A stretch of DNA of 30,323 nucleotides from a virus. Each line of letters begins with the position of its first letter. Positions within the stretch are counted from its first letter, which is position 1. Location: positions 1 through 30,323 of the IMG/VR virus record IMGVR_UViG_3300049734_000591; one strand, written 5' to 3'. Positions 17,081 through 17,899 of the stretch are shown piece by piece. The notes under the pieces are model-generated. The model worked only from the letters and a program-made list of their open reading frames with translations. It was not told where the DNA came from and ran no database searches. Made by a program: the position numbers and the translations under genes.

Positions 17081-17899
17081 ATGCGCGACTATTCCAAAGC
17101 ATCCGGGCGATTCTGGAATGGTGAGACCGGCCGGCAGCTCCGCGGGGATCCCGATGCGCAGCGGATTGCGTTTTATCTCTTCACCTGTCCGTCTTCAAAC
17201 ATGATCGGCATGTATTACCTTCCGCTGCCGACACTTATGCACGAAATCGGCATCAGCGAGGAAGGGGCTTCGAAGGGGCTTCGAAGGGTATCTGAGCTCA
17301 ATTTTGCCCATTACGATCCCGGGAGCGAATATGTCTGGGTCGTCCACATGGCCTTTGAGCAGATCGGCGAGCAACTGGTCGCTGAAGACAAGCGCCATCT
17401 GGGGGTCATCCGCGAACTCGAACAGCACCGCAAGTCGCCATTTTTCAACAAGTTTCTCGATGTCTACCGGAAGCCGTTTCACCTCGAAAGTGTCGCTCGG
17501 ACAGCAAGCCCCTTCGAAGCCCCTTCGAAGCCCCATCGAAGCCAGGAGCAGGAGCAGGAGCAGGAGCAGGAGCAGGAGAAAGAGAAGAGGGGGGAGCCCC
17601 CGCCCGAGAGTTTTGAAATTTCCGATGAACTGCACCGCTGGGCGACAACGCACCAGATCGCGGTCAACCTCGAGGATGAAACCGAGGAAATGCTCGACCA
17701 CTACCGCAGCAAGGGCGAATACCGCCAGGACTGGGTGGCCACCTGGCGCAACTGGATGCGCAAGACCAAGCGTTTTGGAGGATCGAATGGAACTGGCCGT
17801 CACGCACGAGACCGCGGCGACAATTCGAAAGAAACTCCTGGATCAACTTCAAAGCGACGAACAAGCCGCGGCGATCGTATCTACACCCCGAAACAATGA
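17081..17899 (+). CDS. Replication initiator, DnaT/O-like
   Basis: 272 residues, ATG start. The N-terminal ~110 residues resemble the winged-helix region of phage replisome organisers. A low-complexity linker follows with a Gln/Glu repeat (~153-170), then a small C-terminal domain with EMLDHYRSKGEYRQDWVATWRNWMRK, as in DnaT/DnaD-type partners. The tail is basic and polar. The linker and N-terminal regions encode the inverted iteron array described separately. Its end overlaps the DnaC-like gene by 113 bases. A role loading the helicase at the origin is inferred from fold and neighbour. Confidence 0.65.
   Translation: MRDYSKASGRFWNGETGRQLRGDPDAQRIAFYLFTCPSSNMIGMYYLPLPTLMHEIGISEEGASKGLRRVSELNFAHYDPGSEYVWVVHMAFEQIGEQLVAEDKRHLGVIRELEQHRKSPFFNKFLDVYRKPFHLESVARTASPFEAPSKPHRSQEQEQEQEQEQEKEKRGEPPPESFEISDELHRWATTHQIAVNLEDETEEMLDHYRSKGEYRQDWVATWRNWMRKTKRFGGSNGTGRHARDRGDNSKETPGSTSKRRTSRGDRIYTPKQ
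17264..17579. other. Candidate replication origin inside the initiator gene
   Basis: An 11-bp unit is repeated as GGGGCTTCGAAGGGGCTTCG and onward at 17264-17288. The same 25 bases occur in perfect inverted orientation at 17510-17534, 221 bases apart. A further diverged copy flanks the right array. Directly after the right array is a hexanucleotide run, AGGAGC five times plus AGGAGA (17544-17579), then a purine-rich tract. Iterons inside the initiator gene are the arrangement of the lambda O origin. Confidence 0.55.

Follow-up and report, generated by a model that had tools for sequence, protein, structure and literature searches.

The initiator gene and its repeats

The window analysed here is a stretch of viral DNA of 30,323 nucleotides. 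At 17081–17899 (+) it carries a gene for a DnaD-like initiator of 272 amino acid residues, which holds two arrays of short repeats and a hexanucleotide run. The end of this gene is overlapped by that of a DnaC-like AAA+ helicase loader of 248 residues (17787–18533, +), with matches to phrog_50 (4.8e-21, for the longer ORF) and to Bac_DnaA PF00308 (8.4e-6). HNH endonuclease-like genes, at 16713–17045 and 18536–18987, flank the initiator/loader pair on both sides. Elsewhere in this temperate phage contig are an integrase gene (14774–15832), a gene of ParB/Spo0J look (11447–12337, −), and an ORF at 6305–7624 (−) that is rich in DSVWASVRDSVWAGVGDSV-type repeats and almost stop-free in several frames.

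Over its N-domain and linker, the initiator protein matches the profiles phrog_25210 (1.1e-56) and phrog_1701, “DnaD-like helicase loader” (5.8e-40). By these matches it is a member of the DnaD-like phage initiators. Against Pfam at E 0.1 it has no match, including to Phage_rep_O and RepA_N. The AlphaFold model (pLDDT 82.5) predicts an N-terminal winged helix at residues ~24–90, with the recognition helix at residues 60–72, a disordered linker at ~141–170 and a small helical C-terminal part. Foldseek alone finds no match to the model at E < 0.001; the fold neighbours of the protein include the plasmid initiators 4pql, 5kbj, 4pt7 and 4pta, at Z 5.9–6.5, tied with many CRP rows.

The initial annotation had drawn attention to 25 bases at 17264–17288 (GGGGCTTCGAAGGGGCTTCGAAGGG) that recur in opposite orientation at 17510–17534. 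The second copy is indeed the exact reverse complement of the first, and the pair is the sole exact one of its kind in the window; with one mismatch allowed, the arms extend to 17261–17288 and 17510–17537. The annotation had also read these arms as built of 11-bp units. The period of 11 bp stands, and the unit itself is better written as a near-palindromic 9-bp site, AAG-SSS-CTT (AAGGGGCTT/AAGCCCCTT), followed by two free nucleotides. So written, the N-terminal array (17262–17292, +) has AAGGGGCTT at 17262–17270 and 17273–17281, with a third half-site at 17284, and codes for residues 61–71, that is, within the predicted recognition helix. About 245 bp downstream is the linker array (17506–17543, +), with AAGCCCCTT at 17506–17514 and 17517–17525, AAGCCCCAT at 17528–17536 (one mismatch) and a half-site AAGCC at 17539. 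This second array lies about 430 nt into the gene, in the low-confidence linker of the model. Directly adjoining it is the hexamer run, (AGGAGC)5 at 17544–17573 and AGGAGA to 17579, which continues as a purine-rich tract; the whole (17544–17591, +) is a putative unwinding or ssDNA-loading element. The run has A at every third base and, on the opposite strand, T at every third base. These AGGAGC repeats beside the array are about two thirds G+C, and are G+A-rich rather than A+T-rich.

Since 11 is not a multiple of three, successive units lie in different reading frames, which excludes a repeated peptide as the source of the repeat. That chance is an improbable source, as first supposed, is borne out by the counts. 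With up to three mismatches, AAGSSSCTTNNAAGSSSCTT has four matches in the window, all of them here, where 0.46 are expected; none of 100 shuffles reaches four. None of 5000 synonymous recodings of the window gene equals it in the number of exact units or of tandem pairs.

Preservation of the arrays in relatives

Relatives were first found by protein, so that their codons are unselected, and fell into 40 clusters at <75% identity. Part of the relatives were fetched with hand-made consensus queries, which were used solely for fetching. Loci fetched with a DNA pattern are biased to carry arrays and were therefore left out of the statistics on codon constraint, recoding and k-mer position. An array was counted as present when it had at least two units, each with at most one mismatch. 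On this definition both arrays are present in 38 of the 40 diverged clusters, a count which, like all those given here, is inflated by the relatedness of the sequences. The loss in close relatives that the initial annotation had named as a refutation is thus not what the clusters show.

The conservation is at the level of DNA. When each gene is recoded synonymously with its own codon usage, 11.3 exact units are expected in the 40 clusters and 146 are seen; for tandem pairs the figures are 0.23 and 51. Of 133 codon columns, the nine under the strongest constraint all belong to the arrays (array versus other columns, P = 6e-12). Among them, L67 is CTT in 38 of 40 (expected 7.4), G62 is GGG in 39 of 39 (expected 9.0) and R153 is CGA in 22 of 22 (expected 3.4). 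A possible alternative is that selection acts on the protein, whose recognition helix is conserved and whose QE linker is charged, and that the DNA repeats are a by-product; EGASKGL and EAPSKPLRSQEQEQ are in fact conserved as peptides too. This does not account for such extreme codon conservation in initiator genes whose GC3 ranges from 0.38 to 0.81 across the 40 clusters. Nor does it account for the occurrence of array DNA among relatives in all three reading frames and both orientations, or for non-coding copies just upstream of the initiator start codon at five loci (L010, L125, L144, L205 and L228).

The arrays are also confined in their location. Within each of 25 whole records, the array matches all lie in or beside a single region, and a reversed-pattern control gives none. 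A pattern scan of 84,980 genomes returned 63 places, where about 0.1 would be expected by simple base count; these are mostly initiator genes of Pseudomonadota, Bacteroidota, Bacillota and Synergistota. From these comparisons, the arrays appear to be preserved as DNA whatever peptide they encode, in phages of several bacterial phyla.

The inverted orientation of the two arrays, which the initial annotation had pointed out, proved to be incidental, since the linker and N-terminal arrays have the same orientation in Klebsiella phages and in other relatives. This bears on two further alternatives. The perfect inverted repeats, 25 bp long and separated by 221 bp, might bound an invertible segment, or be copies of a mobile palindromic repeat spreading through coding sequence, and the long non-coding arrays in Shewanella described below would suit such a selfish or recombinogenic element. 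Inversion would, however, destroy the ORF, the segment is inverted in none of the relatives read, and array matches are not scattered in the phage genomes. Because of the same-oriented arrays in several relatives we reject the invertible segment, and we regard a selfish element of either kind as very improbable. Likewise, the 25-bp complementarity in the window could allow the repeats to pair in the transcript. The complementarity is lost in the same-orientation relatives L036, L072 and L085–L087, and the window has no Rfam match; pairing in the mRNA is, on these two grounds, rejected, and we give it hardly any credence as an explanation.

Outside the phage initiators, long non-coding tandem arrays of the AAG-SSS-CTT 11-bp unit occur in Shewanella chromosomes (L217:2478–2585, L238:6033–6097 and L214:1680–1808). 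Those of L217 and L238 adjoin replication proteins of YagK/YfjJ type (PF11726) and have integrase-like genes nearby, a setting that hints at possible use of this iteron by satellites or integrative elements. At L126:3114–3155, a non-coding AAG-SSS-CTT-like array is followed by AGATCC repeats, and its neighbour is a Mu F-like head gene, not an initiator.

Site dialects and the A-phased repeat

The relatives from Pseudomonadota, Bacteroidota and Bacillota have differing 9-bp “dialects” of the site in the same linker, nearly always at 11-bp spacing. In Bacillota, other dialects in the linker are TATCSATAC and ACGATACGT, mostly 11 bp apart and followed by an A-phased repeat. In 56 non-redundant Bacillota linkers, chosen without a DNA pattern, the 66 nt that precede the repeat have an identity at lag 11 of 0.41, versus 0.258 (sd 0.008) in shuffled sequence; the family-A figure of the lag-11 and hexamer comparison does include loci fetched with the DNA pattern. 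The ACG group alone has a weaker peak (0.35 at lag 11 versus 0.33 at lag 12).

In two large families with different dialects, that of the linker is matched in the recognition-helix codons of the N-domain. In the second of these families, the dialect AAAGGGTTT is found both in the recognition-helix codons and in the linker, and single loci with further dialects, L607 and L687, have the same double placement. Along the gene, k-mers in common with the linker are longest at the recognition-helix codons in both families (14.0 and 11.1, versus about 6 elsewhere); the Bacteroidota family peaks near codons 10–25, and the Bacillota are flat. N-domain codons and linker co-vary in dialect. Bacillota TAT and ACG users lack the N-terminal array, which is therefore not essential to the architecture. 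The initiator at L687:1584–2060, which has no match to the family profile, carries a dialect of 12-bp period, GATAGGGTATCC, in its linker as well as in its recognition-helix codons; next comes (CAGGAA)n, read in the GTGTGT frame.

How the proteins may tell the dialects apart is suggested by the Bacillota. Their N-domains can be 63–71% identical and yet be of different dialects; specificity must therefore sit in few residues. One N-domain residue, 98 in Geobacillus E2 numbering, tracks the dialect: it is N in 8 of 8 AAG users, K or R in 25 of 25 TAT users and K in 31 of 32 ACG users. Since dialect has changed about three times on the tree, this rule is suggestive only, and it fails in the family to which the window belongs, whose members have either N or K.

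The hexamer run, which the initial annotation had placed beside the array, turned out to be an integral part of the element. In the relatives, too, the linker array is followed by a repeat with A at every third base, on the strand that reads from the array into the repeat. The repeat is CAGGAR in Pseudomonadota, ATGGAT/AAAGAT in Bacteroidota and GAAGAAGAAAAA in Bacillota; it deviates at a few loci, with AGATCC at L126 and GGTAAT at L143 and L165. In the frames that spell Q/E/K/D, codon position 2 is the one taken by A, and the hydrophilic codons partly force the phasing, which is of little weight there. Nine initiators with the hexamer in a shifted frame, translated as GTGTGT, came from a scan in which third positions were unconstrained. 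At their synonymous third positions A is present in 63 of 63, versus 74 of 196 in genes that are unrelated but share the peptide pattern. A 3-nt-phased repeat beside putative initiator boxes, a feature of DnaA-trio-like elements, is present in the window and its relatives, and its A is retained in shifted frames where the codon leaves it free. Together with the codon constraint and the recoding results, the shifted-frame hexamer refutes a protein motif as the whole story, and we judge the protein-level explanation very unlikely. On the comparison of these genes, arrays and hexamer are a DNA element and not a protein motif.

A candidate origin of replication and known systems

The arrays could be operators, serving solely for autoregulation of the initiator/loader operon, with replication starting elsewhere. 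The N-terminal array and the extra arrays upstream of the start codon suit regulation. The operator explanation leaves unexplained an array as deep in the gene as that of the linker, its fixed adjacency to an A-phased repeat, the helical phasing, and the same architecture with other iteron dialects, and we consider it unlikely. Our preferred reading is that the element is probably a replication origin within the initiator gene, made up of iterons for the initiator and an opening element like DnaA-trios or the DnaD recognition element (DRE), in the manner of λ ori or of pSK41 RepA_N. Of the original proposal of a λ-type origin, the placement in the initiator gene, with the initiator as likely reader of the sites and a DnaC-like loader downstream, is what comparison best supports, through codon-independent conservation, fixed location, phased iterons by an opening-like repeat, and dialect matching; the assignment to the λ O family falls, as the window initiator has no Phage_rep_O Pfam match and the neighbouring tract is not A+T-rich. 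Cumulative GC skew over the window (1–30323) has its minimum at ~14–16 kb, near the initiator gene. This fits an origin, but gene direction changes there too and would also account for the minimum, so we do not count it as evidence for an origin.

At such an origin, the winged helix in the N-domain of the initiator would dock on the iterons, and the 11-bp spacing, about one helical turn, would align the initiator molecules on one face of the DNA. The aligned initiators may then strain or open the adjacent hexamer repeat and hold one of its strands, as DnaA holds DnaA-trios or DnaD TnnT repeats. The overlapping downstream DnaC-like protein would load the helicase at the opened repeat. The array in the recognition-helix codons may be a further initiator site, for looping, handcuffing or autoregulation.

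It is tempting to go further and propose a widespread design of phage origin, for which we see about even chances. The DNA-reading helix of the initiator would be coded by copies of its own predicted site, tying reader and target together; 9-bp dialects would switch between lineages, and the helical spacing and the DnaA-trio-like A-phased opening repeat would stay fixed across phyla. No published precedent for the motif (AAGGGGCTT, EQEQEQ, recognition-helix iterons, phage iteron origins) was found in the open-access papers searched. Most temperate phages have, to our knowledge, no mapped origin. If the proposal is true, one could locate the origins of a great many phages and prophages directly in their initiator genes, as phased 9-bp sites and an A-phased linker repeat, and the puzzling QEQEQE, KDKDKD and GTGTGT linkers of phage replication proteins would be explained. 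It would also suggest trio-like ssDNA elements beyond DnaA origins, and provide naturally varied dialects, each with its matching initiator, for the study of protein–DNA recognition and of joint change in helix and site.

Two points against the origin reading are that the rep of TP901-1, an experimentally known initiator, has no AAGSSSCTT iteron, and that the repeat of the window is not A+T-rich. The closest precedents from experiment are λ ori, SPP1 oriL and pSK41 RepA. In λ, the origin is part of the initiator gene, and its iterons precede a tract that opens once the initiator binds (PMC5043065; PMC7466680); the putative iterons of the window are likewise inside the initiator gene. The λ iterons, however, are 19-bp inverted repeats and the tract is A+T-rich, whereas the window tract consists of AGGAGC repeats and its loader is DnaC-like, not λ P. 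In SPP1, direct repeats of oriL lie in gene 38 and are bound by gp38, with gp39 as helicase loader (PMC6316719). Repeats within the initiator gene and a helicase loader are shared with the window; SPP1 differs in its AT-rich unwinding element and in a second origin elsewhere.

The RepA of pSK41 binds, through its N-terminal winged helix, repeats central in its own gene, in a stretch that encodes only linker, and its C-terminal part is DnaD-like (PMC5703833). The origin-like repeats of the window (17506–17543) are also in the central, linker-coding part of the gene. By sequence, however, the window protein belongs to another family, with no RepA_N Pfam match, and its 9-bp sites are GC-centred where the Rep boxes of RepA_N plasmids are A+T-rich. 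The window, moreover, has iterons in the recognition-helix codons and the A-phased hexamer repeat. In B. subtilis oriC, DnaD binds T..T repeats, TnnT (PMC10201434). With its DnaA boxes, DnaA-trios and DnaD recognition element, the basal unwinding system of oriC resembles the window in having dsDNA boxes beside a 3-nt-phased ssDNA element, and the window repeat has T at every third base on one strand. It differs in that the window has phage iterons and a phage initiator, for which ssDNA binding is presumed. By analogy, the TnnT repeats would be the closest model for the hexamer run.
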